From Candidatus Woesearchaeota archaeon (GTDB lineage Archaea; Nanobdellota; Nanobdellia; Woesearchaeales; GW2011-AR9), in contig JACRPJ010000008.1 of assembly GCA_016213985.1 (NCBI GenBank), positions 1 through 14,755 of the forward strand: 14,755 nucleotides of DNA. The letters are read 5' to 3'. The notes below the pieces were generated by a model that ran no database searches, had not been told where the DNA came from, and worked only from the letters and a program-made list of their open reading frames with translations. The position numbers and the translations under genes are program-made. This document shows, one piece after another, positions 944 to 13,791 of this stretch. Position 1 is the stretch's first letter. Each line of letters starts with the position of its first letter.

Positions 944-1885
944 ATGACCCAGACCATTAAAGACCAGCAGAAAAGAGCCACCCGCGAAGGCTACGGCCAG
1001 GCTTTGTTAGAATTAGGAGCAGAAAATCCAAAAATTGTGGCTCTCTCTGCCGATTTAACCGAATCCACTTGTGCTCATCATTTCGCCGAGAAATATCCCC
1101 AGCGTTTCTTCCAATGTGGAGTGGCGGAGCAGAATATGATCACTATGGCTGCAGGGCTGGCCCTGGAAGGACTAATTCCATTTGCTTCCTCTTTTGGCGT
1201 ATTCCTACCAATGCGCTGCCTGGACCAGATTCGGATTTCCGTCGGTTATAATCAGGCTAACGTCAAACTAGTAGCCACACATTGTGGCTTAGCTACCGGA
1301 GAAGATGGAGCTACTCATCAAGCTTTGGAAGATGTCGCGGCTTTGAGAGCGATTCCAAATATAACTATTATCGAGCCGGCAGATTATTTTCAGGCGATTA
1401 AAGCGACCAAAGCTGCAGCTGAGTATCACGGACCAGTTTATCTGAGATTGCACCGGGGGAAATTTGCAGCAGTGACCAAAGAAACGGATGCTTTCAAGGT
1501 AGGAAAAGTTCAGGTACTGCAAAGAGGAGAAAAAGTGACTATTATTGGAAGTGGTCCAATCTTGACGGAAGTGCTGAAAGCTTCTTCTCGATTACACTTT
1601 AAACCAGAAATCATCAATTGCCATACTCTCAAACCGCTCGATGAGACTACCATTGTACAGTCAGTTAAGAAAACAGGTAAAGTTTTAGTAATCCAGGATC
1701 ATCAAATTAACGGGGGATTGGGTTCAGCGATAGCGGAATTGTTATCCCAAAAGTTACCCGCTAAGATGATTATTCTAGGAATGCCCGATAAGTTCGGGGA
1801 ATCCGGTACCCCAGATGAACTCTGGGATAGACACCGCTTGTCTGCAGATGAGATCGTAGCTCAGACTCACCAGTTGCTAAAATGA
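944..1885 (+). CDS. Transketolase, C-terminal subunit
   Basis: A 313-aa protein matching the C-terminal half of split transketolases, which carries the pyrimidine-binding domain and the C-terminal domain. The segment CGVAEQNMITMAAGLA (from residue 58) holds the glutamate (E62) that contacts the thiamine diphosphate aminopyrimidine. GLATGEDGATHQALEDVAAL (residues 115-134) is the family signature. QDHQINGGLGSAIAELL (about 251-267) and FGESGTPDELW (about 284-294) belong to the C-terminal domain. The enzyme moves two-carbon units between sugar phosphates and in archaea supplies pentose and erythrose phosphates. It needs an N-terminal subunit carrying the ThDP diphosphate-binding domain, which is not encoded in this window. 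The start is one base after the upstream stop, and the end overlaps the trxB-like start by four bases (ATGA). Confidence 0.93.
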   Translation: MTQTIKDQQKRATREGYGQALLELGAENPKIVALSADLTESTCAHHFAEKYPQRFFQCGVAEQNMITMAAGLALEGLIPFASSFGVFLPMRCLDQIRISVGYNQANVKLVATHCGLATGEDGATHQALEDVAALRAIPNITIIEPADYFQAIKATKAAAEYHGPVYLRLHRGKFAAVTKETDAFKVGKVQVLQRGEKVTIIGSGPILTEVLKASSRLHFKPEIINCHTLKPLDETTIVQSVKKTGKVLVIQDHQINGGLGSAIAELLSQKLPAKMIILGMPDKFGESGTPDELWDRHRLSADEIVAQTHQLLK

Positions 1886-2808
1886 AGAAACCACATGTTT
1901 ACGAGACCATAATCGTGGGGGGAGGAATTGCTGGATGCACTGCCGCAATTTATGCCGCCCGAAAGAAGATGGATTATCTGCTGCTGACCAAACAGTTAGG
2001 CGGGCAGTTTATGGAATCGGGGGATATTTTTAATTATCCTGGAATCAAGCAGATTAGCGGAGCGGACTTTTCCAGAGCAGTCGAAGAGCAGCTTGCTTTT
2101 AATAAGGTAAATGTAAAAGAAAGGGTGATTGTTAATAAAATCATTAAGAAGAGAGAGCATTTTGTGCTCAAGACCGACGGTAAAGATGTTTTAACTAAAA
2201 CCATAATCATTGCCACCGGCTCTCATCCTCGCACCCTCGATGTTCCGGGGGAAAGGGAGTTCCGGTATAAAGGCGTGACTTATTGCGCTATTTGTGATGG
2301 GCCTCTTTTTTATGGCAAAGAGGTAGCCGTGGTGGGAGGAGGAAATTCAGCGTTAGATGCAGCTGATTCTCTGCTGAATATCGCCAGAAAGATTTATGTG
2401 ATCAATATCCATAATAAATTTGAGGTTCATAAATACCTACTGGAAAAGGCACAGAGGAGTCCTAAAGTTAGGTTAATCACTGGTGCCCGGACTACCAGAA
2501 TCACTGGAAATAAATTTGTTAGCGGAATCGAGTATGAGCAGAAGGGTAAAGTTAAAAAATTGGATGTTCAGGGAGTGTTTGTAGAGATTGGCAGAGTACC
2601 GAATACCTCCTTGGTAAAAGGCTTCTTAGAATTAGATGAGCATCACCACATTGTTATCGATTGCAACACCCAGACTTCCGTTCCGGGAGTTTTTGCGGCA
2701 GGAGATTGCTCTTCGGTGCACGAGTACCAGTATGTGATTGCCGCTGGTCAGGGATGCATTGCATTATTAAAAGCAGCTAGATATTTGGCCAGACATAAAT
2801 CAAGATAA
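1882..2808 (+). CDS. trxB: Thioredoxin reductase-like FAD/NAD(P)-binding flavoprotein
   Basis: A 308-aa protein of usual TrxB length. It has the N-terminal FAD-binding GGGIAGCTAAIYAA (13-26), the ATG segment at 111-113, the redox-active pair CAIC (135-138), a second Rossmann motif GGGNSALDAADSL (152-164) and the C-terminal FAD motif FAAGDCSS (271-278). It would pass electrons from a nicotinamide cofactor through FAD to the CxxC pair and on to thioredoxin or a glutaredoxin-like partner. The usual HRR basic motif after the second Rossmann fold, which binds the NADPH 2'-phosphate, is absent. The stretch there reads VINIHNKFEVHKYLLEKA. NADH use, or an atypical electron donor, is therefore possible. 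The start overlaps the transketolase stop (ATGA), so the two are coupled. The gene faces the convergent gene ending at 2852 across a 43-base gap with no clear terminator. Confidence 0.9.
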   Translation: MKKPHVYETIIVGGGIAGCTAAIYAARKKMDYLLLTKQLGGQFMESGDIFNYPGIKQISGADFSRAVEEQLAFNKVNVKERVIVNKIIKKREHFVLKTDGKDVLTKTIIIATGSHPRTLDVPGEREFRYKGVTYCAICDGPLFYGKEVAVVGGGNSALDAADSLLNIARKIYVINIHNKFEVHKYLLEKAQRSPKVRLITGARTTRITGNKFVSGIEYEQKGKVKKLDVQGVFVEIGRVPNTSLVKGFLELDEHHHIVIDCNTQTSVPGVFAAGDCSSVHEYQYVIAAGQGCIALLKAARYLARHKSR

Positions 2809-2851: not shown

Positions 2852-3505
2852 CTATTGAGGCAACTCATTCCTGTTTCCTCGCTGGTAAATTCCCCTTAAT
2901 TTTGATCCTAATTGCTGGGTCAAGTTTGCTGCCCAAGCTACTTCCTCGGTGAAAGAATATTTTCCTGCCTCCATTGCTTCTCTTTTTCTTTCTACGCCTG
3001 CTAGCATGTAGTCTACGCGGCGCTCTTCCTCGCGGTTGATGTAACCCTTATCCTCTACTACGTCGTTTATTTTAGTGAGTTCTTCATACAAGTCCCACAT
3101 TGGTCTCTGGCTCAAAAAGGCAGCGTAATCAGAATTTATTAGCTCGGGAGGAAGTTCCTTGCTTCCCCGAGTGAGAGCTTCCAACGTTGCGGGTCCTGAA
3201 CCTTTATCCTCCGGCTTACCTTTCCCTGCTTCCACTGCTTCTTCTACTTTTTTGAGACCTATTTTCTTTCCCCGATGAACTCTGATTATCTCCTTGGCTT
3301 CTTCAGCCAGGGTCCCAGCTTCTTCGCTGGCCACTTCGGGGATAGGCACTTTCTCTTTAAGCTTCAGCCTCTCACCCAATTCTTTTTCACTCTCGGTTAT
3401 CTGCCTCTGTGCATCTTCAATTTCTTTCCTTTTTTGCTGCTCAATCTCCTTCAGCTTCTTGATACGCTCTTCCGGAGGAAGGTTTTTTAGATCATCACTA
3501 ACCAT
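2852..3505 (-). CDS. Conserved-looking soluble protein of unknown function with N-terminal coiled coil
   Basis: A 217-aa hydrophilic protein with no membrane segment. Residues about 8-52 are rich in Glu and Lys with heptad-like leucine spacing (ERIKKLKEIEQQKRKEIEDA), which predicts a coiled coil. A low-complexity charged linker follows, to about residue 110. A more globular C-terminal part (about 120-205) contains YAAFLSQRPMWDLYEEL and an Arg/Lys/Glu-rich helix around EEERRVDYMLAGVERKREAM. I do not recognise the family. It lies 32 bases downstream of the 510-aa gene on the same strand, so the two are very likely co-transcribed and may form a complex. The clean start, the operon position and the biased composition support a real gene. 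Confidence 0.75.
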   Translation of the reverse strand: MVSDDLKNLPPEERIKKLKEIEQQKRKEIEDAQRQITESEKELGERLKLKEKVPIPEVASEEAGTLAEEAKEIIRVHRGKKIGLKKVEEAVEAGKGKPEDKGSGPATLEALTRGSKELPPELINSDYAAFLSQRPMWDLYEELTKINDVVEDKGYINREEERRVDYMLAGVERKREAMEAGKYSFTEEVAWAANLTQQLGSKLRGIYQRGNRNELPQ

Positions 3506-3537
3506 AACTACTCAAAAACTCTGGAACAATAAAAATC

Positions 3538-5070
3538 TTACCAAGCAATCATGCCATGGGCCTTCTTAAAGTTGTGGTAAGTGTTCCAGGCTGGGTCGGT
3601 AGCTTCTTTCCTGAGACTGCCCAGAGCTTCTTTTACTTTTTCAGTTTTTCCCCGTACTTCTTTAGGACTAACCGCTTTCTTCCCCTTCTGGGGAGTATAA
3701 AAATCGCCAAAAAATTTTTCCATGAAGGTCTTTTTCGGTGCTGAGACTTCCCTGTTCTTTTCTGTTTCTTTTTTCTGCTCTCCCTTAGCCTCAGCAATAT
3801 ATTTTTCCAACTCTTCGCCCAAAGAACCCATCGCTTGGTATACTGAACCGGAGATATCTGCCATCAATAACATAGTTTCTTTATCTTTCAATTGTTTATA
3901 ACCCTCTACCTGCTCATCGGTCCAGGTATACGCACGTAGGTACACCTCAAATTTACCTATATGCACCGGTCCGCGCTGGTATCCTTCTTGAACTACCTTC
4001 AATTCTGGCCGAGTACGGTAGTGGAAAGTAGCCAGTATACAAGCATTGGCTCCGTCTCTACTCTTTCGGGCCAGAACCTCTACATCCAGCATGCTGCCCT
4101 CAAAAGCAGAGACTATGTCTGCAGAGCTCATGCTCTTTTCTTTCATGCTCAGGCGAGGGATGTGCTTAAGATAAGGTTTGATCCAAGCAGTGTACATTTT
4201 AATGATTTCAAAATGCTGCAGTAAATACCTAAGCATGAACACTCTTCTGCTCTTATGCTCTTTGTGCGTCCTCTTCCTCCATTCCGTATACTGATGGAGA
4301 TGCCGATGTAATACTCTTAACACGTTGCGGTTAAAGTCTTTGGACAAGTCATTAATGTAGCTCTCCAGCTCGTGCTCATCTTTAAAAGGAGGGGCATCGA
4401 AGAACAAGTCAGGAAGAGTAACAAATTCTAGCTCCCTGGCCATCCCAAACACTGAAGCAGCACTTTTAGCTCCTCCCTGAACCAGATCTACAAATATTCC
4501 CTTCAGAGTTATTTCAGCACCCTTGCCTCGGGAAGAAATTGGTTTTTCCAGCTCCTCTTTTACTTGATTGTAATATCCTAACCGCTCATCGAGAATTCTC
4601 AGCTCCCTAACCATTTGGAACAATTCTTTGATCATCTTGCCTGCAGCGATCAGAAATTGAGATATTTTCTCCTGTTGCGCACCTAATCTCTGCTGGGTTA
4701 CCCCAAAGAAAGCGGAGTTTTCGGCCGCAGCAAAAGCATCTTCCAGCTTATATATTTCCGGAAAGCTTTCTTTTAGATTATCCAGAATCCAGAAATAAGG
4801 TTCCTCTAAGCTCAAATCATACACTTCCCAAACCAGATGATAAGTTTTTAGTGAAGTAGGGTAGCCAGTTTTTCCAAAATGTTCTTTGATGATTTCTGCT
4901 ACTTCTTCTTCCGCGTCCTCTTCTTTTAGTCCGTACCCAGGCACCGGCTCGTAAATTTTCTTTGCCTCATTAAATACATAATTCCCCTTCTTATTACTTT
5001 TAATAAAGCCGTACTGAATCAGTAATTCAGAACGCTTGGGTTCTTTCTCTTTCCATAACTCCTCAGTCAT
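3538..5070 (-). CDS. Large soluble protein of unknown function
   Basis: A 510-aa, strongly charged protein with no signal peptide and no membrane segment. The N-terminal 60 residues look like a small winged-helix-sized unit (LLIQYGFIKSNKKGNYVFNE). Residues about 100-200 are helical, with a likely coiled coil around LIAAGKMIKELFQMVRELRI. The central part (about 230-320) has the basic helical stretch LHRHLHQYTEWRKRTHKEHK, which could contact nucleic acid. Residues about 330-405 carry beta-like segments (ACILATFHYRTRPELKVVQE). The tail after about 430 is a low-complexity Lys/Glu region followed by a short conserved-looking end. I do not recognise the family and assign no function. The ATG is preceded by an SD-like GGGG six bases upstream. 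The gene is first in an operon with the 217-aa gene. Confidence 0.78.
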   Translation of the reverse strand: MTEELWKEKEPKRSELLIQYGFIKSNKKGNYVFNEAKKIYEPVPGYGLKEEDAEEEVAEIIKEHFGKTGYPTSLKTYHLVWEVYDLSLEEPYFWILDNLKESFPEIYKLEDAFAAAENSAFFGVTQQRLGAQQEKISQFLIAAGKMIKELFQMVRELRILDERLGYYNQVKEELEKPISSRGKGAEITLKGIFVDLVQGGAKSAASVFGMARELEFVTLPDLFFDAPPFKDEHELESYINDLSKDFNRNVLRVLHRHLHQYTEWRKRTHKEHKSRRVFMLRYLLQHFEIIKMYTAWIKPYLKHIPRLSMKEKSMSSADIVSAFEGSMLDVEVLARKSRDGANACILATFHYRTRPELKVVQEGYQRGPVHIGKFEVYLRAYTWTDEQVEGYKQLKDKETMLLMADISGSVYQAMGSLGEELEKYIAEAKGEQKKETEKNREVSAPKKTFMEKFFGDFYTPQKGKKAVSPKEVRGKTEKVKEALGSLRKEATDPAWNTYHNFKKAHGMIAW

Positions 5071-5120
5071 ATTATTCCCCTTTTTTGAAGTGGATAGTGT
5101 TTTAAGCTTAATAAGTTTTT

Positions 5121-5130
5121 CTTTTTAAAT
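5121..5130 (-). promoter_or_regulatory. Putative promoter of the 510-aa/217-aa operon
   Basis: On the minus strand this reads ATTTAAAAAG, a TATA-like element about 51 bases upstream of the ATG at 5070. That leaves room for a leader of roughly 25 bases. An SD-like GGGGA lies at 5076-5080, six bases before the ATG. The element sits close to the stop of the methyltransferase gene upstream on the same strand. Confidence 0.4.
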
Positions 5131-5133
5131 TGA

Positions 5134-5766
5134 TTATTTTAAGTTTATCCCCTTAAAGAACCAGAGACCCTCTCTGATGCTGAGAGAAACCCTAAATCCC
5201 TGGCTGATTAAGATATCTTTCCATTCCTCTACAGAGCAGTGATTAACTTCTTTCTGTTGCTGCCAATTGTTGATGTTCCGGGAGTAAAGCACCACCATTA
5301 GTGTTCCTCCCTTCTTCAGAACTTGTTTTATTTCTTGCAAGAGTTTCCCGTAATTCTTAATGTAATTTAGGACAAACACCGCTGTGACTGAATCAAATTC
5401 ACTGTGGTTAAAAGGCAACTTTTTTTCTAAGTCTCCCACTACTTTTTGGGTGAGCTGCCCATTAAATTGCAGCATTTTCTCCGAGAAATCTACCCCTACC
5501 GAAGGAAGGTAAGAGTAACTTCCACAACCTAAATCAAGATTCTTTCCTTCCCGCAGGAAACTTAATTTCTGTGTGATTAATTCCCTTTTTTCTTTCTCTA
5601 TTTTATGGTTCCACATGAATGCTTCGGCGTTCCAGAAAGAGGAATTGTTCTCAGGCCAGCCTTTCGCCCAAGGTATCCTGGAAGACAATGTTCTAAGCCT
5701 AGATTTCACTCTTAATCCATACTGTAACTTCATCAGCCCAATTAAAAAGCTAGTTTCAGGGTTCAT
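5134..5766 (-). CDS. Class I SAM-dependent methyltransferase
   Basis: A 210-aa protein of the Methyltransf_11 type. Motif I is LDLGCGSYS (77-85), the SAM-binding glycine loop. The acidic residue that binds the ribose hydroxyls is D93 in VGVDFSEKML. GDLEKKLPF (111-119) and DSVTAVFVLNYI (125-136) are the usual motifs II and III. KQVLKKGGTLMVV (147-159) is the post-motif helix and strand. The first 60 residues form a basic, aromatic-rich extension that may recognise the substrate. The substrate cannot be told from the sequence. The start lies five bases after the stop of the MFS transporter, so the two are co-transcribed. A link between methylation and export or import of the same compound is an inference from that pairing only. 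Confidence 0.85.
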   Translation of the reverse strand: MNPETSFLIGLMKLQYGLRVKSRLRTLSSRIPWAKGWPENNSSFWNAEAFMWNHKIEKEKRELITQKLSFLREGKNLDLGCGSYSYLPSVGVDFSEKMLQFNGQLTQKVVGDLEKKLPFNHSEFDSVTAVFVLNYIKNYGKLLQEIKQVLKKGGTLMVVLYSRNINNWQQQKEVNHCSVEEWKDILISQGFRVSLSIREGLWFFKGINLK

Positions 5767-5771
5767 TTTTA

Positions 5772-6923
5772 TTAAAACAGCAGTCCAGCTAAGACTGCGA
5801 TCCCATTGAATATTACGCCCCCAACTAGGCTTTCTTTAAGCAGTCCGCCGGTGAGAATAAATATTCCCAGGACTACGCATAATAACAGCATTCGGCCCAG
5901 ACAGATGAACATCTCTCTTTTGACAAAATAAGCAGGAAGGTCCGATTTAGCTTTGTCATATTCTAGCGCTCCTGCCGGAGCTTCAAATATTCCGTAAGTT
6001 AGTGAGCCAAATACCGTAACTCCAAATACCTGGGCAACCGTACTTACACCAGCACGTAGGAACCAAGAGATGGACTCGAACAACGTTGCTATTTTAAGTA
6101 GTATGTGTTTGTTTATATGATCGCTGTACTTTCCTACTAGCCATAACAGAACCGCACTTGCTCCCGCTAAGATGGACTCAGTTATTCCTAATGACAAATA
6201 GTCTCTGAGTATGATAAAAATAAACAGTGGCCAAATCACTCCCGCAGCAATCACCCGGGTTCCTCGAGAAATAAAGAACAAAGAATCCTTCCAATATTTC
6301 TTGTCCCACAATGTTCTAAATGAAAAATTACAATGGAATCGGTTTTCCTTACTGAAAAATAAACAGAAAGCAGATGCAAATAGAAACAATGAGGTGACCA
6401 AGAAGAGTAATTTAAACCCCGCAAACTTGATCATAAGCCCACCCAAAAACGGGCCTAACATAGTAGCAAGTATAGATATTCCTTCACGCTTCCCCAATTC
6501 TTCCCCCCGGTGTTTATGGTCGCTGGCATGACAAAATATTAAGTGCATCCCCATCCAATAAAAAGCGAGAGATGCACCTAAAATTATTCCTATTATAATT
6601 AGAGGCACTTTCATAACCGGCAATAGGTACAACAACAGGATGAATAACATATATATAGGCACACTGATGAGAACCGAATGCTTACACCCGTATTTGGACG
6701 TGAATTTAGCTGCTAGGGGGGAAATCAACGCCAATGCCAAGGAATATACAAAGTAAAAATACAAAGTATGGGAGAAGCTTACCCCCATTTCTTGGTATAA
6801 ATATAGTGGAATGAACAAACTAATAAGAGAGAGGGAGAAAGAACGAATAGCGGCAGAAATGTAAATCTGGGTTAGTTCCTGACGGGGAAAGAACCTCCAC
6901 CAAAAGTAGTGATTGGGGTGCAT
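5772..6923 (-). CDS. Major facilitator superfamily transporter
   Basis: A 383-aa integral membrane protein with about eleven or twelve hydrophobic helices. The first spans about residues 20-45, and a long hydrophobic run near 85-130 covers two or three more. The usual cytoplasmic loops are short and basic. The segment CHASDHKHRGEELGKREGIS (about 131-150) corresponds to the loop with a conserved Arg-Gly between helices 4 and 5 in this family. The middle of the protein (about 190-210) is a basic cytoplasmic linker between two six-helix halves. Substrate and direction of transport cannot be read from the sequence. It is the first gene of an operon with a methyltransferase. The ATG lies about 25 bases from a TATA-like element, so the mRNA is probably leaderless. 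Confidence 0.85.
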   Translation of the reverse strand: MHPNHYFWWRFFPRQELTQIYISAAIRSFSLSLISLFIPLYLYQEMGVSFSHTLYFYFVYSLALALISPLAAKFTSKYGCKHSVLISVPIYMLFILLLYLLPVMKVPLIIIGIILGASLAFYWMGMHLIFCHASDHKHRGEELGKREGISILATMLGPFLGGLMIKFAGFKLLFLVTSLFLFASAFCLFFSKENRFHCNFSFRTLWDKKYWKDSLFFISRGTRVIAAGVIWPLFIFIILRDYLSLGITESILAGASAVLLWLVGKYSDHINKHILLKIATLFESISWFLRAGVSTVAQVFGVTVFGSLTYGIFEAPAGALEYDKAKSDLPAYFVKREMFICLGRMLLLCVVLGIFILTGGLLKESLVGGVIFNGIAVLAGLLF

Positions 6924-6945
6924 AAAAGAAAGGAAAATTTAGGGG

Positions 6946-6953
6946 TTTATATG
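6946..6953 (-). promoter_or_regulatory. TATA-like element of the MFS/methyltransferase operon
   Basis: The minus strand reads CATATAAA, ending 23 bases before the ATG at 6923. This places the transcription start at or next to the start codon and predicts a leaderless transcript. It is divergent from the tRNA-Val promoter 40 bases away. Confidence 0.55.
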
Positions 6954-6990
6954 GGTTTCTCCGGGCAATGAGAGTTAAAACGAAAGATTT

Positions 6991-6998
6991 TTTAAATA
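6991..6998 (+). promoter_or_regulatory. TATA box of tRNA-Val
   Basis: The sequence TTTAAATA starts 29 bases upstream of the first base of the mature tRNA at 7020, which is the standard archaeal spacing. Confidence 0.65.
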
Positions 6999-7040
6999 CA
7001 GTTGAAATGACCTTCTCGTGGACCTGTGGTCTAGCGGCTA

Positions 7041-7063
7041 CATGCATAAAAGCATGCCACAGA
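7041..7063 (+). other. Predicted D-loop intron of tRNA-Val (23 nt)
   Basis: The core is a perfect hairpin, CATGC (7041-7045) and GCATG (7052-7056) with loop ATAAAA. Cutting here joins GGCTA to TGAC, giving the expected D arm. The junction could equally be 7040-7062, with the same product. A full bulge-helix-bulge is not evident, so exact ends are less certain than for the other two introns. Confidence 0.65.
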
Positions 7064-7079
7064 TGACAACTCGTTGACG

Positions 7080-7107
7080 GGCTGTGCGTAAATAGCTATG
7101 CTCAAAA
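7080..7107 (+). other. Predicted anticodon-loop intron of tRNA-Val (28 nt, position 37/38)
   Basis: A bulge-helix-bulge is visible. The anticodon stem is the outer helix. The central 4-bp helix is TTGA (7074-7077) with TCAA (7102-7105). The 3-base bulges are CGG (7078-7080) and AAT (7106-7108). Cutting after the second base of each bulge gives the canonical 37/38 junction. Confidence 0.82.
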
Positions 7108-7129
7108 TCGAGTAGATCCCCGGTTCGAA

Positions 7130-7154
7130 AGGTAGCAAAACCTACCTACGAAAG
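7130..7154 (+). other. Predicted T-loop intron of tRNA-Val (25 nt, position 59/60)
   Basis: The T stem is the outer helix. The central helix is TTCG (7124-7127) with CGAA (7149-7152). Bulges are AAA (7128-7130) and AGT (7153-7155). The inner helix is GGTAG with CTACC. Cutting after the second base of each bulge yields exactly TTCGAAT, the canonical T loop, which is strong support for the boundaries. Confidence 0.85.
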
Positions 7155-7187
7155 TCCGGGCAGGTCCATTCATTTCCTTTTCCCAAG

Positions 7188-7658
7188 ATGGAGACAACCA
7201 GATTTTCAGAACAGCCTTTGTATGCGTTATTACCAAGTAGGAGAAGAGTGGTAATTCCAAAGATTATTTCTATAGTAGTGCTAGGGATAATATTCTATTT
7301 AGGAGTGCTGCTTAACGTTTATCTGTTGGAATTAAATGCTGCCGAAGAGACCATCGTTAAGGTCAGTTCACTGGCTCTACTGATATTAATCATAATGCTG
7401 GGGGTTTATTTGGCATACCATCAGGCTAATCAGCCATATAACTTCTACAAAGATAGAATCGAAGCAGGAAGAAAAGCACTCATCCACTACACGGACATTA
7501 CGGGAGTAAGCAAGAAGCAGAATATTCTGGATAAAATCTTCAGGACCTACAACTTAGACTTAGGAAACAAAAACTTCCTTAGGAACCTCCCTGAAGAGAT
7601 ACAAATAGAGAATTATCTGCAACAGTTGAGGGCTTATTCTAAGAACCTTTCTGGATAA
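7188..7658 (+). CDS. Small membrane protein with two helices and a PH-like cytoplasmic tail
   Basis: A 156-aa protein. A basic N-terminal stretch (LLPSRRRVVIPK) precedes a first hydrophobic helix at about residues 26-47, and a second lies at about 57-80. The remainder is soluble. The segment YNFYKDRIEAGRKALIHYTD (about 84-103), then ITGV, has the strand pattern of bacterial PH-like (bPH2/DUF304) domains, where a short two-helix anchor is followed by a sequence describing how an emission-type loop is displayed on the membrane. That family assignment is tentative. The function of such proteins is poorly known; a membrane-associated scaffold role is inference. The ATG lies only 19 bases after the tRNA-Val 3' end with no separate promoter visible, so the gene may be transcribed from the tRNA promoter and released by tRNA 3' processing. 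Confidence 0.7.
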   Translation: METTRFSEQPLYALLPSRRRVVIPKIISIVVLGIIFYLGVLLNVYLLELNAAEETIVKVSSLALLILIIMLGVYLAYHQANQPYNFYKDRIEAGRKALIHYTDITGVSKKQNILDKIFRTYNLDLGNKNFLRNLPEEIQIENYLQQLRAYSKNLSG

Positions 7659-7704
7659 TTATATGCCATAAACTTAGAGTCCTAAAGTATAAAAATCTTT
7701 TTTT

Positions 7705-7776
7705 GATTTAAATGGTCCTTTGATGGTAGTCAATATTTAACTTCTTTTTCAAAAAAAGAATAAAAGATTTAAATGG
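7705..7776 (+). promoter_or_regulatory. Promoter region of the dehydrogenase/ATP-grasp cluster with an 11-bp direct repeat
   Basis: GATTTAAATGG occurs twice, at 7705-7715 and 7766-7776. The second copy contains a TATA-like TTTAAAT about 40 bases upstream of the ATG at 7812, so transcription would start near 7797. Between the copies lies the near-palindrome TTCTTTTTCAAAAAAAGAA (7742-7760), which could be an operator or a terminator for the preceding gene. The repeated element may be a duplicated promoter or a regulator site. Confidence 0.45.
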
Positions 7777-7811
7777 GGTTGTTTTTGAAGATAAATTTTG
7801 GGGGAAGGAAA

Positions 7812-8825
7812 ATGAAAATATGCATACCGAAAGAAACTTATCCTTTGGAAAAAAGGGTGATGTTAATTCCTAATTCCGTGAAAAATCTAGTGAAAGCAGG
7901 GCATGAGGTCTTTGTCCAATCAAATGCAGCTGTAGGGGTTAATATCGAAGATGAAGATTATTCATCAGCCGGGGCTAAGATTGTAACCGAGGCTAGGGAT
8001 CTCTATAACCTAGCAGAATTAGTAGTTAAAGTCAAAGCTCCATCTCCAGAAGAATTTTCTTTGATGCATGATATTACTTTGTTGAGTATGTTTCATAGTG
8101 AGCAGAATCCAGTTCATATTTATTATGCAGGCAAGCAAAATTTAATAGTAGTAGAGGTGGAGTCGATCCGGGATGAAAAAAACAAGAGATTTATTGACCA
8201 AACGGATATAACCGGCAAAGCAGGAGTTTATTATGCTCTGCAGCACAGCAAAAAAACACCGGAAGAAATGAAAGCAGTGATTTTAGGTTATGGCCATGTC
8301 TCCAGCGGAGCAATAGAAGCCTGTGCTCGGTTGGGTATTGAATTTAAAATCATTAGAAAAGGGGAATTCAAATATATCCCTAAATATTTGAAAGAAGCTG
8401 ATCTATTGATAAACGGAATAGCCTGGCCAGAAAGCAGAAGATCCAAGAAAGAATACTTGGTTACTAGAGAAGACATTAAAAATGCCCAAAAAGAGATGAT
8501 TGTTTTAGACCTTTCAGTAGATTTTCCGAATCCTATTGAGACTGTGCGTCCAACAACCTACTCCCAGCCTTATTACCTCGAAGAAGGAAGAGTGCATATT
8601 AGTCTTTATGGATATCCGGGTTTGGTACCAATAACTTCTACCAACCGGTATAGCAAACAAATAGAACCTATAGTTTTGTTGATTGCTGATAATGGGGATG
8701 TTGAGGGAATTAGTAAGAAAGGGGATTTAGGGATAGCGATTAGTAAGGCAATAATATACCCCCATAAATTGGATTGGACGGAATATAAACCAACAGAAAC
8801 ACCGCCAGGAAGTAGGATTGAGTAG
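7812..8825 (+). CDS. Alanine dehydrogenase-family oxidoreductase resembling N5-(carboxyethyl)ornithine synthase
   Basis: A 337-aa NAD(P)-dependent dehydrogenase of the alanine dehydrogenase/transhydrogenase family. The N-terminal domain starts MKICIPKETYPLEKRV with the conserved R15. VVKVKAP (71-77) holds the substrate lysine K75, and MFHSEQNP (93-100) the conserved histidine H95. The nucleotide loop is AVILGYGHVSSGA (155-167). DLSVDFPNPIETVRPTTYS (233-251) matches the region with the catalytic aspartate (D237). GYPGLVPITST (267-277) follows. The features AGVYYAL before the Rossmann fold and ADLLINGIAWPE after it resemble carboxyethylornithine synthase, which reductively joins pyruvate to ornithine or lysine. 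That substrate is inferred. An ATG at 7773 is in frame, but the ATG at 7812 follows an SD-like GGGGGAAGG and begins at the conserved N-terminus, so it is chosen. The next gene starts 12 bases downstream. Confidence 0.85.
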   Translation: MKICIPKETYPLEKRVMLIPNSVKNLVKAGHEVFVQSNAAVGVNIEDEDYSSAGAKIVTEARDLYNLAELVVKVKAPSPEEFSLMHDITLLSMFHSEQNPVHIYYAGKQNLIVVEVESIRDEKNKRFIDQTDITGKAGVYYALQHSKKTPEEMKAVILGYGHVSSGAIEACARLGIEFKIIRKGEFKYIPKYLKEADLLINGIAWPESRRSKKEYLVTREDIKNAQKEMIVLDLSVDFPNPIETVRPTTYSQPYYLEEGRVHISLYGYPGLVPITSTNRYSKQIEPIVLLIADNGDVEGISKKGDLGIAISKAIIYPHKLDWTEYKPTETPPGSRIE

Positions 8826-8837
8826 AAGTGATTTAAA

Positions 8838-9887
8838 ATGCCAGAGGAACATAATGTGTTTAAACTTAATTTTCACCAAAGAAAAGATTTTAATTGTAAA
8901 GGTGTGGAATTGACTACTTGTCTTATTATTGATGAGGCTTTAAAGAGAGGAATAAGGGCAGAGTTTGTGTTGGGCAAATATCTAGAGCTTTCGTTTGAAG
9001 GTAAAAAAAAATTATTTTATCTAGCAGATAATACTTCTTTGTCTTATCTTGCTCAAAAAATAACTGCTAGTAAAACAGAAACAAAAACCTTTCTAAGAAG
9101 AGCAGAGATAACTGTCCCTGAAGGAAGGTGTTTTCAGGTTGGAGAGCTTGAGGAGATTGTTTCTTATGCAGATTATTTACAAGGTCCAATAGTGATTAAG
9201 CCAGATTCAGGAAGCGAAGGGAAAGGGGTTTATTGTGGAGTAGCTCGGAAGGATATTGGGTTGATTGTAAAGGAGATAGCAAAGAAGTTTAGGTCTATAA
9301 TAGTTGAAAAACAAGTATTTGGGAATGAATATCGGGTTTTGGCTACAACTGAGGGTTACCTGGCTACAATTATGAGAAGGCCGGCAAATGTTTTAGGTGA
9401 TGGGAAGCAGTCAATAAAGAAGCTAATTGAAGAAAAGAATGTAGGTAGACAAAACAAAGCAACAAAACCATTAACTTGTCCTTTTATAAAGATTGAGATT
9501 GATGATGTGGTGCAGAGATATCTGGCGAGTAAAGGAATAAGTTTAGCTTATATACCAAAGGAAGGGGAAAGGGTCTATTTAAGGGAAAATTCAAATATCA
9601 GTACTGGTGGTGATGCTATAGAATTAACTGATAAGGCACACCCGTCAGTGAAGGAAATAGCTTTAAGAGCTCTTGGGGCAATTCCAGGTATGACTTATGC
9701 TGGTATTGATCTGATTACAAAGGATATAATAAAAGATATAAATAAAGCAGGTTATGCCATCATCGAGCTGAATAATATGCCAGGCATCTGGCCTTTACAT
9801 TATCCTTATATTGGAAAACCCCAAAATGTAGCTGGCGCTTTAATTGATTTAAATTTGGCAGAGACAAAACCTAAAGGGGGTGGCTAA
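8838..9887 (+). CDS. ATP-grasp ligase of the GshF/cyanophycin synthetase type
   Basis: A 349-aa stand-alone ATP-grasp enzyme. The ATP-binding loop is VIKPDSGSEGKGV (119-131). The adenine-binding region is around IIVEKQVFGNEYRVLATTEG. RRPANVLGDGKQSIKKLIEE (180-199) and RENSNISTGGDAIELTD (249-265) closely resemble the ATP-grasp domains of bifunctional glutathione synthase (GshF) and cyanophycin synthetase. Metal ligands D291, E310 and N312 (IIELNNMPG) are present. Such enzymes make an amide bond through an acyl-phosphate. It lacks both the glutamate-cysteine ligase domain of GshF and the Mur-ligase domain of cyanophycin synthetase, so substrates differ or come from a partner. It follows the dehydrogenase by 12 bases, with GTGAT as a weak SD. 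Composition is clearly AT-richer than the transketolase region. Confidence 0.87.
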   Translation: MPEEHNVFKLNFHQRKDFNCKGVELTTCLIIDEALKRGIRAEFVLGKYLELSFEGKKKLFYLADNTSLSYLAQKITASKTETKTFLRRAEITVPEGRCFQVGELEEIVSYADYLQGPIVIKPDSGSEGKGVYCGVARKDIGLIVKEIAKKFRSIIVEKQVFGNEYRVLATTEGYLATIMRRPANVLGDGKQSIKKLIEEKNVGRQNKATKPLTCPFIKIEIDDVVQRYLASKGISLAYIPKEGERVYLRENSNISTGGDAIELTDKAHPSVKEIALRALGAIPGMTYAGIDLITKDIIKDINKAGYAIIELNNMPGIWPLHYPYIGKPQNVAGALIDLNLAETKPKGGG

Positions 9888-9902
9888 GATAAGTAAGAAT
9901 TT

Positions 9903-9993
9903 ATGAATACTAAGAAAAGGAGATACCCCTTATTCCAACCGTAATGCAAAGAACTTATTTAATTATGCAAAAGAATCTGGCTTTGAAGCTGAA
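9903..9993 (+). other. In-frame coding extension of the second ATP-grasp gene without a normal start
   Basis: The frame of the gene at 9994 stays open upstream to 9907 and translates as ILRKGDTPYSNRNAKNLFNY followed by AKESGFEAE. It looks like the N-terminal strand and helix of a RimK-type pre-ATP-grasp domain. No ATG, GTG or TTG lies in this frame before 9994; the frame closes with TGA at 9904-9906. An ATG at 9903 is one base out of frame and stops after 13 codons. Either one base is inserted (or two lost) just after that ATG, or a rare start codon is used. Confidence 0.6.
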
Positions 9994-10929
9994 ATGAGAG
10001 ATTATTCCGAGATAAGGGATGGTCCATCTTTTAAGAATGAAATAATCAATGTGATGTTCTTTTTTCCTTATGTTTTCTGGAATAAAAACTGTGAAATGCC
10101 AGAAGATACAAAATTATATGGGACATCAAAAAAAAGTTATGAATTGCTTAGGGAATTTTTTTTTGAAGTAGAAGGGGCTTTACAAAAAAAATATAAGGGT
10201 CGCCAATTAAATTATATCATCTCGCCGAAATTTGCCGCTTTAGATAGGGATAAAATAGCCACAATTCAGAAGTTGAGCGAGTCTAAAGTTCTGACCAGTA
10301 AAATGGTTTCCGAGAGGAACTTGGATGAGATCTTAAACAGAATAACTCCAAAAAGGGGGATTTTTATAAAATGCCGGTATGGAGCAGAAGGAAAAGGTAT
10401 TACTTTGCTGCAAAAAGATAAGTGGGTAACTAATTATAAAGTGGAAGGAAATAGGTTAACTAATTATGGGGTTTATGATCGTTGGGAATTTTCTGAGATC
10501 ACAAGCAGAAGAGATTTACTAGAACAGCTTCTAGAACAGGAAGTGATTGTGGAAGAAGAAATAATTGTTCCAGAATTGTTTGCAGATAAAAAATTTGATT
10601 GCAGGGCCTATGTGATCAAAGGTAGGGTTCCTCATTTTTTTGTCAGGGTAAATGAACAGTCAAAGGTAGTAACTAATTATGCTCAAGGGGGCAAAGTCTT
10701 TCACCATCCTGAAACTGGTTTGTCTTCTAAGTTTAAAATCAAAATTGAAGAAGAGGCAGTTAAATCAGCAGAGGCCTTTGAATTCAAATTTTTGGGCGTA
10801 GATATTATGTTTGACCGTAGTGAAGGAGCTAAAGTAATAGAGATCCAAACTTTCACTGATTTTCCCGATATAAACCATTTTAATCTAGCCAAGTATATGG
10901 TTAGTGATAAAAGTGGGTTGTTTTGTTAA
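9994..10929 (+). CDS. ATP-grasp ligase, RimK/YheC-like (N-terminus probably further upstream)
   Basis: A 311-aa protein from the first ATG, and about 340 aa if the upstream in-frame extension from 9907 is included. FIKCRYGAEGKGITLL (about 125-140) is the ATP-grasp phosphate-binding loop. KKFDCRAYVIKGRVPHFFVR (about 197-216) is the adenine/ribose strand pair with the conserved FDxR pattern. FLGVDIMF and KVIEIQTFTDFPD (to about residue 293) provide the metal-binding Asp and Glu. The usual third ligand, an Asn two residues after the Glu, is replaced by Gln (EIQ), which may alter metal binding. Overall it is nearest to the peptide-ligase and spore-associated YheC/D group. It joins a carboxylate to an amine at the cost of ATP. 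Substrate unknown. It shares strand, composition and cluster with the two upstream genes, 106 bases after the previous stop. Confidence 0.82.
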   Translation: MRDYSEIRDGPSFKNEIINVMFFFPYVFWNKNCEMPEDTKLYGTSKKSYELLREFFFEVEGALQKKYKGRQLNYIISPKFAALDRDKIATIQKLSESKVLTSKMVSERNLDEILNRITPKRGIFIKCRYGAEGKGITLLQKDKWVTNYKVEGNRLTNYGVYDRWEFSEITSRRDLLEQLLEQEVIVEEEIIVPELFADKKFDCRAYVIKGRVPHFFVRVNEQSKVVTNYAQGGKVFHHPETGLSSKFKIKIEEEAVKSAEAFEFKFLGVDIMFDRSEGAKVIEIQTFTDFPDINHFNLAKYMVSDKSGLFC

Positions 10930-10954
10930 AGACTCTTTTATCCAGACAAAATCC

Positions 10955-10962
10955 TTATAAAT
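10955..10962 (+). promoter_or_regulatory. TATA box of tRNA-Phe
   Basis: TTATAAAT ends 25 bases upstream of the first base of the tRNA at 10987. The spacing matches the tRNA-Val promoter. Confidence 0.65.
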
Positions 10963-11007
10963 CCCCCTCTAATTTAACTCTATACTGGGACCTTAGCTCA
11001 GCCTGGG

Positions 11008-11040
11008 ACAACCTTTAGGACCTTTCTGAAGGTGCGGGGA
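11008..11040 (+). other. Predicted D-loop intron of tRNA-Phe (33 nt)
   Basis: Removal joins CAGCCTGGG to AGAGC, the usual archaeal tRNA-Phe D arm. The intron folds as ACCTT (11011-11015) with AAGGT (11029-11033). The ends may shift by one base (11009-11041) with the same product. A canonical bulge-helix-bulge is not obvious, so boundaries rest on the consensus tRNA. Confidence 0.68.
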
Positions 11041-11057
11041 AGAGCACTACGCTGAAG

Positions 11058-11080
11058 ATGTTCTTCAAGAACAAGCTGAA
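11058..11080 (+). other. Predicted anticodon-loop intron of tRNA-Phe (23 nt, position 37/38)
   Basis: The intron contains a hairpin TGTTCT (11059-11064) with AGAACA (11068-11073). Removal gives the loop CTGAAGA between perfectly paired stems. The central helix of a bulge-helix-bulge is only partly formed, so the exact cut sites are deduced from the tRNA consensus. Confidence 0.72.
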
Positions 11081-11096
11081 ACGTAGTTGTCCGGGG

Positions 11097-11127
11097 AGGT
11101 CGTTCCTTAATTGAAATGGCCACGGAA
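11097..11127 (+). other. Predicted T-arm intron of tRNA-Phe (31 nt, position 53/54)
   Basis: The T stem CGGGG ends at 11096 and the T loop TTCAAAT begins at 11128, so the extra bases lie exactly between them. An inner helix GGTC (11098-11101) with GGCC (11118-11121) is followed by a partial central helix, CCG (11091-11093) with CGG (11123-11125). The bulges are GGA and AAT. This is a relaxed bulge-helix-bulge. Confidence 0.75.
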
Positions 11128-11149
11128 TTCAAATCCCCGAGGTCCCAGC

Positions 11150-11166
11150 TTTTTCTCTGATAAAAA
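11150..11166. terminator. Back-to-back T-run terminators
   Basis: On the plus strand TTTTT (11150-11154) follows the tRNA-Phe 3' end by two bases. On the minus strand TTTTT (11162-11166) follows the stop of the T2SSF gene. Oligo-T runs act as archaeal terminators. The two transcription units converge here. Confidence 0.5.
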
Positions 11167-11167
11167 T

Positions 11168-11998
11168 CTATCCCATCATCGTTGTTTTGGTGAGAATTTG
11201 CAAGGCAAAGACATTAAACAATACTATTACCACCGCTGATATGAAACAATATAACAAAGTGCTGTTGATCAAGTTCTTTCCCAGCTGGTATCTCTCCGCT
11301 AACTTATCTGCACCATTTTCAATACCGTTACTTAATACTGTTAAAATATAAACTATCTGAACAATATAAATTCCTACCACAATCTGAAAATAAAAGGTAG
11401 GAATGCCTATCCCGAATATGCTCACCATATCTCCTAATGAACCCAACTGTTCTCCACTTCCAGTAAATCCTCCCAACTGCGCACTTAACCGGGTTAAAAT
11501 AGTAGAAATCATGGCGGTAATGCCTACTACAATGCCCGCAATGGCCGGAGTGAGGAACTTAATCTGAGCTTTCATGGAAGAAATCTCCTCCCCCATCAGG
11601 TCTTTCAATCTCTCCTCGACCGTATGTATTTCTTTGATATAACGCGACATCGACAATAAGGCCTGAGCGGCGATTCTTGGACCTTTTTTGGCGCTTTCCA
11701 CCAACACTTTCATCGATGATTCAATGACTTTAGAAGGGTAGCTGGCTAATGCACCAACTTTAGGATCAAAAATGGCCTGCTCTAATCCCATACCCAGCCT
11801 AGTCATATTATGTTCGGCTACGCTGAAAAAATCTCCTGAGGTGGTTCCCCGCATCGTTTCTGCTACTCGGAAAAAAGCAATCTCTGCCGGAATTCCATCC
11901 CCTAGCCGATTTCCTAGCTGGAATAAAGCAGAAGAAAATTCATCTTCCAGTAACCTCGTTTGCTCTCTGATTTTAATCACGTTCTTGTAGCGCAGCAA
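11168..11998 (-). CDS. T2SSF/ArlJ-like membrane protein, second half
   Basis: A 276-aa protein with a T2SSF domain, the membrane platform of type IV pilus, archaellum and Tad-type machines. The soluble helical bundle at about residues 20-135 includes LFQLGNRLGDGIPAEIAFFR, the family's usual opening. VLVESAKKGPRIAAQALLSM follows. Membrane helices lie at about 148-168, 192-222 and 246-268. The platform would anchor the assembly ATPase, whose gene is not in this window. The longest frame starts with TTG at 11998 and overlaps the upstream gene by 26 bases. A GTG at 11980 gives an 8-base overlap and may be the true start. The beginning reads as a direct continuation of the upstream protein, so the two may be halves of one platform protein separated by a shift of frame. 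Confidence 0.82.
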   Translation of the reverse strand: MLRYKNVIKIREQTRLLEDEFSSALFQLGNRLGDGIPAEIAFFRVAETMRGTTSGDFFSVAEHNMTRLGMGLEQAIFDPKVGALASYPSKVIESSMKVLVESAKKGPRIAAQALLSMSRYIKEIHTVEERLKDLMGEEISSMKAQIKFLTPAIAGIVVGITAMISTILTRLSAQLGGFTGSGEQLGSLGDMVSIFGIGIPTFYFQIVVGIYIVQIVYILTVLSNGIENGADKLAERYQLGKNLINSTLLYCFISAVVIVLFNVFALQILTKTTMMG

Positions 11999-13334
11999 TC
12001 ACTACCAAAGACATTAAAGTACCTCCCACTCCATAAGGACCCAACTTTTTCGCTATATCACAATTAGGATTCTCGGGAGGACAAATATAGTCCAAGAACT
12101 TGAACGTCCCTTCTTCGTCTTGGATTTCAAAATTTTTATCTATGGAATGCAATATCAACGGGCTAAAGCCAATAATCACTCCAACTAGTAAAACCATCAT
12201 GCTGAAGTACAATGGATTTATGCTTATTACCAACTTCTTGCCTAAATTGAGATTAACATTCCTAAACCTCCTGACTGCCGGATTTTCTCCTATATCAGTA
12301 GCCCCATAGCCAGTGGGGCGCTTGGAAAGGATGACCTTCCCCAGGTAAAACACGCCGATAGGCAAGCCTACGTTGTACAGTACCGAGATATAAATAGCAG
12401 AGATGAATGGACTGCTGCCACCGCCGCTCATAAAGCTTACCACCAAAGGCAGAATGACCAACCCTAAAATAGGTAATATGATTCCTAGCATGTTTAGCAT
12501 ATTGATGGGAGATTGTAATGAATGGGCATAATGTAGCATATTCTCGTAGGTGCCGTTGAGAATGACATCCAGAGCTTTATCCAGGAGACTTAGCCGACGG
12601 TCCTCGGAAGGCTCAAACAAAGATGATTCCACGAGGTGAAATGCTTCCACGAATTCCTGGTTAGCTTCTTTCCAGCTTTCCAGATAAGCGTTAGCGGAAT
12701 CACGAATGGTACTATATTTCTGCGTTTCTGCATCCCACAGGATTTTGCGGAAGTCCAGCGACAAAGGAGAATCTAAATGATCGGCAGCAAACTCGATTGC
12801 CCGTTCGAGATTAGAAGTATGACGCATGTAAGTGACTAAATAAAGTATGCTTTGTACCATTTGGTTGCTGGCTTTCATCCTCCAAGTATTAGCCATAAAT
12901 TTGGGAATAGAACGCAGGGCAGGAATCATCAGCAGGCCGCCAAATGCCACCAATGCTACTAACGGAAACATCGAAGGAAGTCCGAACAAGACGGGGAGGG
13001 CATACGCTATCAACGAACCAAACACCATAACCAGCAGAGGAGCGAGAATCGAGAAAGAGATTACCCCAGCAGGAGTGGTATTTAAGTGGCAGGTATCTAA
13101 GTCTTTCTGCATTACCCCTGCTTTTGAAGCATCTACCTTTAGTTTTAGAACCTCTCCAGAAAAATTACCAGCTTTTTCGTACCAGGAATAGCGGGCGGGA
13201 TACAGCTCTTCTTTAAATTCAGTATATTCTTTAGAAGTAATCTTAGCTGGTTTACTTATGGCATGCTCACCGAACTCCTCTTTAACCTTTTCTTTATACT
13301 TTTCCAGTAATCGCTTATATTCATCCTGCTCCAT
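11973..13334 (-). CDS. T2SSF/ArlJ-like membrane protein, first half
   Basis: A 453-aa protein. Residues 1-85 are a charged cytoplasmic region. Hydrophobic segments at about 90-115 and 120-140 form the first membrane part. Residues about 155-275 are a helical T2SSF-type bundle (MVQSILYLVTYMRHTSNLER and following). Further membrane helices lie at about 277-301, 308-336 and 372-394, with a last hydrophobic stretch at about 433-449 directly before the stop. Bundle followed by helices, repeated in the next gene, is the architecture of ArlJ/TadC-like platforms. The ATG follows AGGGTGATAA (13343-13352 on the minus strand), a good SD. No ATPase, pilin or prepilin peptidase gene is visible nearby. The substrate and type of filament, if any, are unknown. 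Confidence 0.82.
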   Translation of the reverse strand: MEQDEYKRLLEKYKEKVKEEFGEHAISKPAKITSKEYTEFKEELYPARYSWYEKAGNFSGEVLKLKVDASKAGVMQKDLDTCHLNTTPAGVISFSILAPLLVMVFGSLIAYALPVLFGLPSMFPLVALVAFGGLLMIPALRSIPKFMANTWRMKASNQMVQSILYLVTYMRHTSNLERAIEFAADHLDSPLSLDFRKILWDAETQKYSTIRDSANAYLESWKEANQEFVEAFHLVESSLFEPSEDRRLSLLDKALDVILNGTYENMLHYAHSLQSPINMLNMLGIILPILGLVILPLVVSFMSGGGSSPFISAIYISVLYNVGLPIGVFYLGKVILSKRPTGYGATDIGENPAVRRFRNVNLNLGKKLVISINPLYFSMMVLLVGVIIGFSPLILHSIDKNFEIQDEEGTFKFLDYICPPENPNCDIAKKLGPYGVGGTLMSLVVIAALQERD

Positions 13335-13370
13335 CTATTAACTTATCACCCTAAGCAGGATTAATCTGAG

Positions 13371-13380
13371 AGTTTAAAAA
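13371..13380 (-). promoter_or_regulatory. TATA-like element of the T2SSF operon
   Basis: The minus strand reads TTTTTAAACT, about 37 bases upstream of the ATG at 13334. This predicts a short leader that still contains the SD at 13343-13352. Confidence 0.45.
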
Positions 13381-13408
13381 GATTGTTGCAGGGAGATGGT
13401 ATATACAA

Positions 13409-13446
13409 ATAACTGCGCAGGTTATATCTCATTAGTGCGCAGTTAT
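13409..13446. repeat. Perfect 11-bp inverted repeat
   Basis: ATAACTGCGCA (13409-13419) and TGCGCAGTTAT (13436-13446) are exact inverted copies separated by 16 bases. The right arm includes the stop codon of the truncated toxin frame. It could be a terminator-like stem, a protein-binding site upstream of the T2SSF promoter, or an end of an element. Confidence 0.75.
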
Positions 13447-13565
13447 CTTACAACGGGCAGGGCGACTATTAGAAATTGAAGATCTTCCTCAAAGATGATT
13501 TCCTCAGTTTTCCCTTTCTTTATCAAGACAGAAAAAAGTATATTAGCATCAATTTCGAAATCCAT
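13443..13565 (-). pseudogene. Truncated PIN-domain (VapC-like) toxin gene
   Basis: The ATG at 13565 lies one base after the antitoxin stop. The 40-residue product begins MDFEIDANILFSVLIKKGKT and continues to EEDLQF. This is the first strand and helix of a PIN domain, with the first catalytic aspartate (D6 in IDANIL). Then it breaks into an unrelated tail (LIVALPVVR) and stops. Full PIN toxins are about 130-140 residues, with three more acidic residues. None of the three downstream frames resumes the domain. The break lies within six bases of the arm of an inverted repeat, so truncation by rearrangement is likely. The fragment cannot be an active ribonuclease. Confidence 0.75.
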
Positions 13566-13566
13566 C

Positions 13567-13791
13567 TTAAGCCGGCGGTCTCCTCTTGGCGAGCTTCTTG
13601 TTAAGCTCTCTCCCTAACCTTATGGCATCTTCCTCTGTAAGGGTGCTTTTTGACTTGAATTTCTTTATGAATTCTAAGTCAGCTATCTTCTCATTAATAG
13701 CTTCTCTTGCGACAGCGCTCCAATTAATCTCGGCAAAGGAGTCCATCTTGTGTTTCAACTCAGAGGGTATTGATAATGTTACATTTACCAT
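13567..13791 (-). CDS. Ribbon-helix-helix antitoxin (VapB-like)
   Basis: A 74-aa protein. The N-terminal strand MVNVTLSIPSELKHKMDSFA (1-20) and the helix pair after it (INWSAVAREAINEKIADLEF) form a ribbon-helix-helix DNA-binding fold. The basic C-terminal tail (TEEDAIRLGRELNKKLAKRR) is the usual toxin-binding part. In an intact pair it would neutralise a PIN toxin and repress its own promoter. Here the toxin that follows is truncated, so the antitoxin is orphaned or acts on a toxin elsewhere. The ATG follows AGTGATAA (13793-13800 on the minus strand), an SD-like sequence. Confidence 0.85.
   Translation of the reverse strand: MVNVTLSIPSELKHKMDSFAEINWSAVAREAINEKIADLEFIKKFKSKSTLTEEDAIRLGRELNKKLAKRRPPA

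Follow-up and report, generated by a model that had tools for sequence, protein, structure and literature searches.

A dehydrogenase and ATP-grasp ligase gene pair from a Woesearchaeota genome: a candidate amidoligase cassette with an optional third gene

N5-(carboxyethyl)ornithine synthase of Lactococcus is an NADPH-dependent enzyme that forms an opine. LysX and ArgX modify LysW, and RimK modifies the ribosomal protein S6, in each case at the C-terminus of the protein. GshF, in its C-terminal domain, and cyanophycin synthetase both carry an ATP-grasp domain alongside a second catalytic domain. A review describes methanogens in which relatives of the ATP-grasp domain of GshF stand alone, beside GshA-like genes (PMC7278568). 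Predicted bacterial peptide-ligase operons include some with a saccharopine dehydrogenase and some with ATP-grasp enzymes (PMC2922099); like the locus described below, they would combine peptide ligases with the reductive formation of an amine link, but are bacterial and have other core genes. In the accessible portions of the open-licence literature we found no description of such a dehydrogenase-plus-ATP-grasp cassette in archaea.

The window analysed here is a stretch of 14,755 nucleotides from a Candidatus Woesearchaeota archaeon (assembly GCA_016213985.1, contig JACRPJ010000008.1), whose fragmented assembly of 634,937 bases is 59% complete. It holds three co-directional open reading frames, at the positions given by the first-pass annotation: a dehydrogenase (DH) followed by two ATP-grasp ligases, AG1 and AG2 (Table 1). 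Their family matches in Pfam, family models or the PDB lie far above chance level. For DH, an in-frame ATG at 7773 is the less likely start, and relatives begin at the equivalent of the start listed.

Table 1. Positions of the cassette genes and associated features in the window
Feature	Position	Strand	Description
DH	7812..8825	+	AlaDH/saccharopine-superfamily dehydrogenase, 337 aa
DH C-terminal tail GSRIE codons	8808..8822	+	immediately 5′ of the DH stop
AG1	8838..9887	+	free-standing GshF/cyanophycin-synthetase-type ATP-grasp ligase, 349 aa
AG2 N-terminus homologous region	9895..9993	+	interrupted by TGA at 9904-9906; profile match G000:C11:9895-10926
AG2	9994..10929	+	RimK/LysX/YheCD-type ATP-grasp ligase ORF, 311 aa as open

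At all nine loci that can be read downstream of DH (the window, L002, L003, L004, L005, L006, G089, G191 and G221), AG2 follows on the same strand. From contig coordinates we take L002 to be G448, L003 to be G564, L004 to be G054 and L005 to be G488. The start of the L005 DH is cut by a contig end and the G221 DH has an aberrant N-terminus; in one more genome, G300, the contig ends inside DH and the neighbouring gene would lie beyond it. The order DH-AG1-AG2 is intact at 2/9 loci, scarred at one (G191) and without AG1 at the remaining six. Since AG2 is constant and AG1 is not, the core of the cassette is two genes, with a third that is often lost. The three-gene neighbourhood put forward by the first-pass annotation is thus conserved as regards DH and AG2, but not as a complete set. 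Distances for DH and AG2 are correlated across the nine loci (Mantel r 0.65, p 0.0007, n 9), which fits co-inheritance weakly, as shared ancestry would yield the same result.

The distribution of the pair is patchy. A scan of genome contigs with DH returned 12 relatives, five of them close (60–77% identity) and seven at 30–45% over residues 1–175 or 1–91. Across 371 genomes of the phylum, 13 matched DH at 1e-30: six at 378–661 bits, the G300 fragment at 150 bits, and six at 106–116 bits, a group that includes two ordinary alanine dehydrogenases (L021 and L022). AG2 also matched in 13 of the 371 at 1e-20, and the five genomes above 445 bits all have a strong DH. Within the family, four of 49 genomes matched DH at 1e-40, the G300 fragment included; within the order, eight of 352 did so at 1e-50, and seven of these hold the DH-AG2 pair. 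In the eighth, G199, a distance of about 3 kb separates DH from an AG2-like gene on the opposite strand. G191 comes from a different order within the class. A further locus, L006, lies on a contig binned as Thalassocella blandensis, which we take to be a gammaproteobacterium, with RtcR and RtcB genes nearby. The L006 DH is 79% identical to the archaeal L005 DH, and searches for AG2 around L006 found it in one of 61 genomes of the family and one of 349 of the phylum, on both occasions the genome of L006 itself; the contig may be chimeric. Taken together, the pair has probably moved horizontally. Carriage by phages or plasmids was considered and rejected: no DH relative was found in 26 candidate stretches of viral contigs, searched with DH alone, and DH matches in 215 plasmid and 8 phage records all fall below 60% identity. 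Among the best 30 of the 215 plasmid matches the annotated entries are alanine dehydrogenases; over the best 30 of 215 and the best 60 of 538, the plasmid entries are alanine dehydrogenase, transhydrogenase, weak unrelated proteins or unnamed, with no carboxyethylornithine synthase named among them, and the phage entries have no informative name.

Judged by sequence, DH is a member of the alanine dehydrogenase/saccharopine dehydrogenase superfamily, which also includes the NAD(P) transhydrogenase alpha subunit. It shares the two AlaDh_PNT domains (AlaDh_PNT_N 1.6e-28, AlaDh_PNT_C 1.8e-17), the overall fold, and R15, K75, H95 and D237, whose active-site roles we assume from alanine dehydrogenase; position 75 is Arg in the L002, G221 and G199 proteins and position 15 is Glu in G221. 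The first-pass annotation likened DH to carboxyethylornithine synthase, which is presumably of the same superfamily and similar in length; the matches obtained here place DH in the superfamily at large, and a closer likeness to that synthase is conjectural. DH differs from ordinary alanine dehydrogenases in three respects, besides the longer nucleotide-binding domain of the latter. Gly267 occupies the position of what we take to be the active-site Asn of alanine dehydrogenase (at about residue 300) in all ten pair-type sequences, that is the nine pair loci and G199, whilst Asn is present in 8/8 others; position 182 is Arg in the same ten; and the protein ends in a tail closing with IE. Against the alanine dehydrogenase model TIGR00518, DH scores 136.5 bits and does not reach the cut-off of 391.85, whereas two ordinary alanine dehydrogenases from this phylum reach 499.7 and 431.8. 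A plain alanine dehydrogenase is ruled out by this score together with the change of Asn to Gly. The gene is under purifying selection, with a dN/dS of about 0.10 against L002 (0.143/1.487), a rough value given the high dS.

AG1 aligns across the ATP-grasp region of cyanophycin synthetase (4.7e-68) and GshF (2.5e-58), and matches cyanophycin synthase in the PDB at 2.2e-36. It lacks the second catalytic domain of those enzymes, in agreement with its first description as a free-standing ligase, and its full-length scores stay under the family cut-offs (230 vs 850 bits for cyanophycin synthetase, 198 vs 425 for GshF). A Pfam scan of 16 window ORFs revealed no GCS-type or Mur-ligase-type domain, and glutathione synthesis was rejected as no GCS-type gene is among them. 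A housekeeping role, the second of the findings that the first-pass annotation had named as overturning its proposal, is therefore unsupported for either DH or AG1.

AG1 has its own history. A search of 16 genome entries, in which the genome of L004 is counted twice, found it in the window and L003, where the two proteins are 67% identical, with a weak relative in G280. At the DH-AG2 junction of G191 there is a 39-codon frame in which MTEEHNKFILDFHKRKDFYFKNVELATCLIID leads into LVFSETS and a stop codon. This frame is 72% identical to the AG1 N-terminus over 32 residues (1.9e-10), and its end resembles the AG1 C-terminus LVFPETK, a likeness that is weak by itself (E 1.1); we read it as the scar of an internal deletion of AG1. 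The junctions of six other loci bear no trace of AG1, the best match (E 0.005) lying in AG2 itself. From these comparisons, AG1 appears to be an older member of the cassette that has often been lost. AG1-like proteins occur in six of the 371 phylum genomes at 1e-20. Outside the window their surroundings differ: the G170 gene accompanies a GCS2-type gene and a class-II GATase, and that of G192 lies among genes for radical SAM, DUF3419 and methyltransferase proteins. The contexts in G134 and G243 seem to be alike.

The assignment of AG2 to the RimK/YheC-type ligases stands (RimK family 5.4e-13, PF14398 YheCD-like 4.3e-11), although the open frame is cut at its N-terminus, a point that the first-pass annotation does not mention. 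Without its N-terminus, the window protein stays far under the family cut-offs for RimK (48.9 vs 143.4 bits) and LysX (38.8 vs 275.6), and no solved structure is related to it by sequence at E 0.01. The modelled full-length L002 protein has a RimK/LysX-type fold, and its best structural matches are RimK, LysX and ArgX; the models of this protein and of DH were built from shallow alignments of 15 and 18 sequences. The first impression that catalytic residues are largely kept holds for AG2 (Lys, Lys, Asp and Glu) as for DH, with the exception that the usual ExN of LysX and RimK is ExQ in AG2 at 9/9 loci. Unlike LysX and ArgX with LysW, AG2 has an enzyme, DH, as its neighbouring partner. A LysW model gave no match in 11/11 genomes (the control was positive in 4/14), and lysine or arginine synthesis by a LysX-LysW route was rejected on this ground.

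The explanation that we favour, with a probability of roughly 0.45, is a small amidoligase cassette, probably spread horizontally, with a DH-AG2 core and an optional AG1, that would make an opine-like or pseudopeptide metabolite. The gene families, their adjacency, the loss of AG1 and the patchy spread are observed; the opine-type reaction and the ‘small peptide-like compound’ of the first-pass annotation belong, together with the substrates, cofactor, order of steps and product of the scheme that follows, to what we infer. DH would be an NAD(P)H-dependent reductase other than an alanine dehydrogenase, and its Asn-to-Gly site would suit a reaction in which a 2-oxo acid and an amino compound are coupled reductively. 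AG2, following the chemistry of its class, would activate a terminal carboxylate as the acyl phosphate and then add an amino acid. AG1, where it is kept, would extend the product by another residue, a dispensable step.

DH might instead supply a building block, an L-amino acid obtained by amination of an unusual 2-oxo acid, from which AG2, with or without AG1, would make a di- or tripeptide, with no opine formed. The fold of DH and its R15, K75, H95 and D237 do resemble alanine dehydrogenase, and AlaDH-superfamily enzymes are paired with AG2-like ligases and GATases in looser clusters of related archaea. In G199 a DH 47% identical to that of the window accompanies the AG2-like gene, two class-I GATases and a ligase of RimK type. 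The G280 cluster combines an AlaDH-superfamily gene with a GATase, an AG2-GNAT fusion and two Ddl-type ligases, and also includes a decarboxylase and a weak MurL relative. In both G025 and G014 an AlaDH-superfamily gene is grouped with GATase-like, GNAT and AG2-like genes, the AG2 of G014 being cut by a contig end, and in G215 a DH-like gene is joined by a GATase, an AG2-like gene and an Asp/Glu racemase. An AlaDH-superfamily reductase, an AG2-type ligase and variable amide-forming enzymes thus form a recurrent theme in these archaea, one that also counts in favour of the amidoligase cassette. The replacement of the active-site Asn in every pair-type sequence and the shortfall against the alanine dehydrogenase cut-off speak against simple amination, however, and we think a supply role unlikely.

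A further alternative concerns the C-terminal tail of DH, which the first-pass annotation does not mention, any more than it does the protein C-termini on which the structural matches of AG2 act. Beyond a variable linker, the Ser, the Ile and the closing Glu of the tail are the same at 9/9 pair loci, whilst a C-terminal Glu occurs in 0/9 other AlaDH-superfamily sequences. The codons change synonymously (Glu is GAG at six loci and GAA at three, Ser AGT at three and AGC at six), which rules out a nucleotide-level cause of the conservation. Residues 331–337 are modelled with pLDDT below 50 and the tail is probably flexible. Given this invariance, and the action of the best structural matches of AG2 on a protein C-terminal Glu, AG2 may charge DH: it would be a protein C-terminal ligase with DH as its substrate, placing an amino compound on the terminal Glu. 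The tail could then present the tethered compound to DH as a carrier, or the modification could regulate DH. We regard this as doubtful in either form. Conservation of the tail could serve assembly or closure of the active site; the EDWGE motif at the C-terminus of LysW is absent from DH, and in L005 the Gly of the tail is replaced by Arg. Small molecules are also substrates of RimK-fold ligases, and in the structural comparison two further LysX entries score 18.9, equal to D-Ala-D-Ala ligases, and PsnB and Ddl enter the Foldseek ranking at positions 10 and 13. In its most specific form, which we hold to be less probable still, DH would be its own carrier: AG2 would load the C-terminal Glu, at its gamma-carboxyl, with an amino acid, the tail would bring this tethered amino acid to a DH active site for reductive coupling of its free amine with a 2-oxo acid, and AG1, where present, would extend the compound before release. 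If true, this would be a new carrier-bound chemistry in which a reductase carries its own substrate, and to our knowledge the first enzyme to be both an amino-group carrier and an opine-type synthase.

Considering the amidoligase cassette again, the copy in the window carries one lesion. The AG2 profile match begins upstream of the open frame and contains a single in-frame TGA, with no in-frame ATG, GTG or TTG in the 29 codons from there to the start of the open frame (Table 1). The frame translates as KNL*ILRKGDTPYSNRN, where the L003 counterpart reads NLLILGKGDTPYSDRN. Either some 34 N-terminal residues that are present in L002, where they form the first strand-helix-strand of the model, are missing in the window, or the assembly is in error. 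Against three common relatives, pN is 0.287–0.318 for the window AG2 and 0.270–0.302 for that of L002, which suggests that the window gene evolves at most slightly faster. As the rest of the gene is open, pN is only slightly raised and dN/dS against L002 is about 0.10 (0.198/1.875, again rough at this dS), the lesion is either recent or an assembly error. That the pathway is already dead in this genome and the region records loss alone would accord with the TGA and the want of a usual start after it, with the loss or scarring of AG1 at other loci, and with an orphan AG2 in G028 that has lost the catalytic Glu, but a possible base error, 311 other open codons and purifying selection on AG2 make it improbable.

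The genomes of DPANN archaea are tiny, and few biosynthetic pathways are known from them. An amidoligase cassette that is patchy in its distribution, under selection, and seemingly present in a bacterium too suggests an exchangeable small-molecule trait.

The dehydrogenase (DH) and its RimK/LysX/YheCD-type ATP-grasp partner (AG2) also occur as a pair in a contig binned as bacterial (L006; table), which points to transfer between domains, a chimeric contig being the less likely alternative. Genes for RtcR and RtcB lie near this pair.

Relatives of AG2 are found in other settings. The neighbours of the AG2–GNAT fusion include two Ddl-type ligases, a weak relative of MurL and a diaminopimelate-decarboxylase-like gene. 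For the orphan relative in genome G028, no DH match was present within the stretch examined (L045), and the catalytic ExN/ExQ motif is replaced by AxH.

Features of the window and of the stretches compared
Feature	Stretch (genome)	Coordinates	Strand	Remarks
Transketolase C-terminal half, thioredoxin-reductase-like protein	Window	944-2808	+	Transketolase half free-standing; adjoining
p217, p510, methyltransferase, MFS transporter genes	Window	2852-6923	-	Same contig as DH–AG2
tRNA-like stretch	Window	10987-11147	+
Two membrane-type proteins	Window	11168-13334	-	Overlapping; no Pfam match
DH–AG2 pair	L006	8001-10248		Contig binned as Thalassocella blandensis
AG2–GNAT fusion	L043 (G280)	5256-13637		Coordinates cover the fusion and its neighbours
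Orphan AG2 relative	L045 (G028)	7520-8542
GCS2-type ligase (weak), AG1-like ligase (44%), class-II GATase	L063 (G170)	3131-6079		Consecutive

Within the window, p217, p510 and the methyltransferase and MFS transporter genes share the contig of the pair, as they do in genome G054 (L051), with a layout that differs between the two. The thioredoxin-reductase-like protein scored 293 bits, under the family cut-off of 343, and the membrane-type proteins are reminiscent of the pilus assembly proteins TadC/FlaJ. The tRNA-like stretch begins with GGGACC and ends with GGTCCCA, and looks like an intron-containing tRNA gene; it gave no ARAGORN call and no Rfam match.

Ligases resembling AG1, the GshF/cyanophycin-synthetase-type enzyme, also occur elsewhere. 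The G170 row possibly represents a split glutathione-like pathway. Three clusters (L064 in G243, L065 in G192 and L066 in G134; the family scan covers L065 only) combine radical SAM, DUF3419, AG1-like ATP-grasp and methyltransferase genes, and form a putative biosynthetic set of their own.
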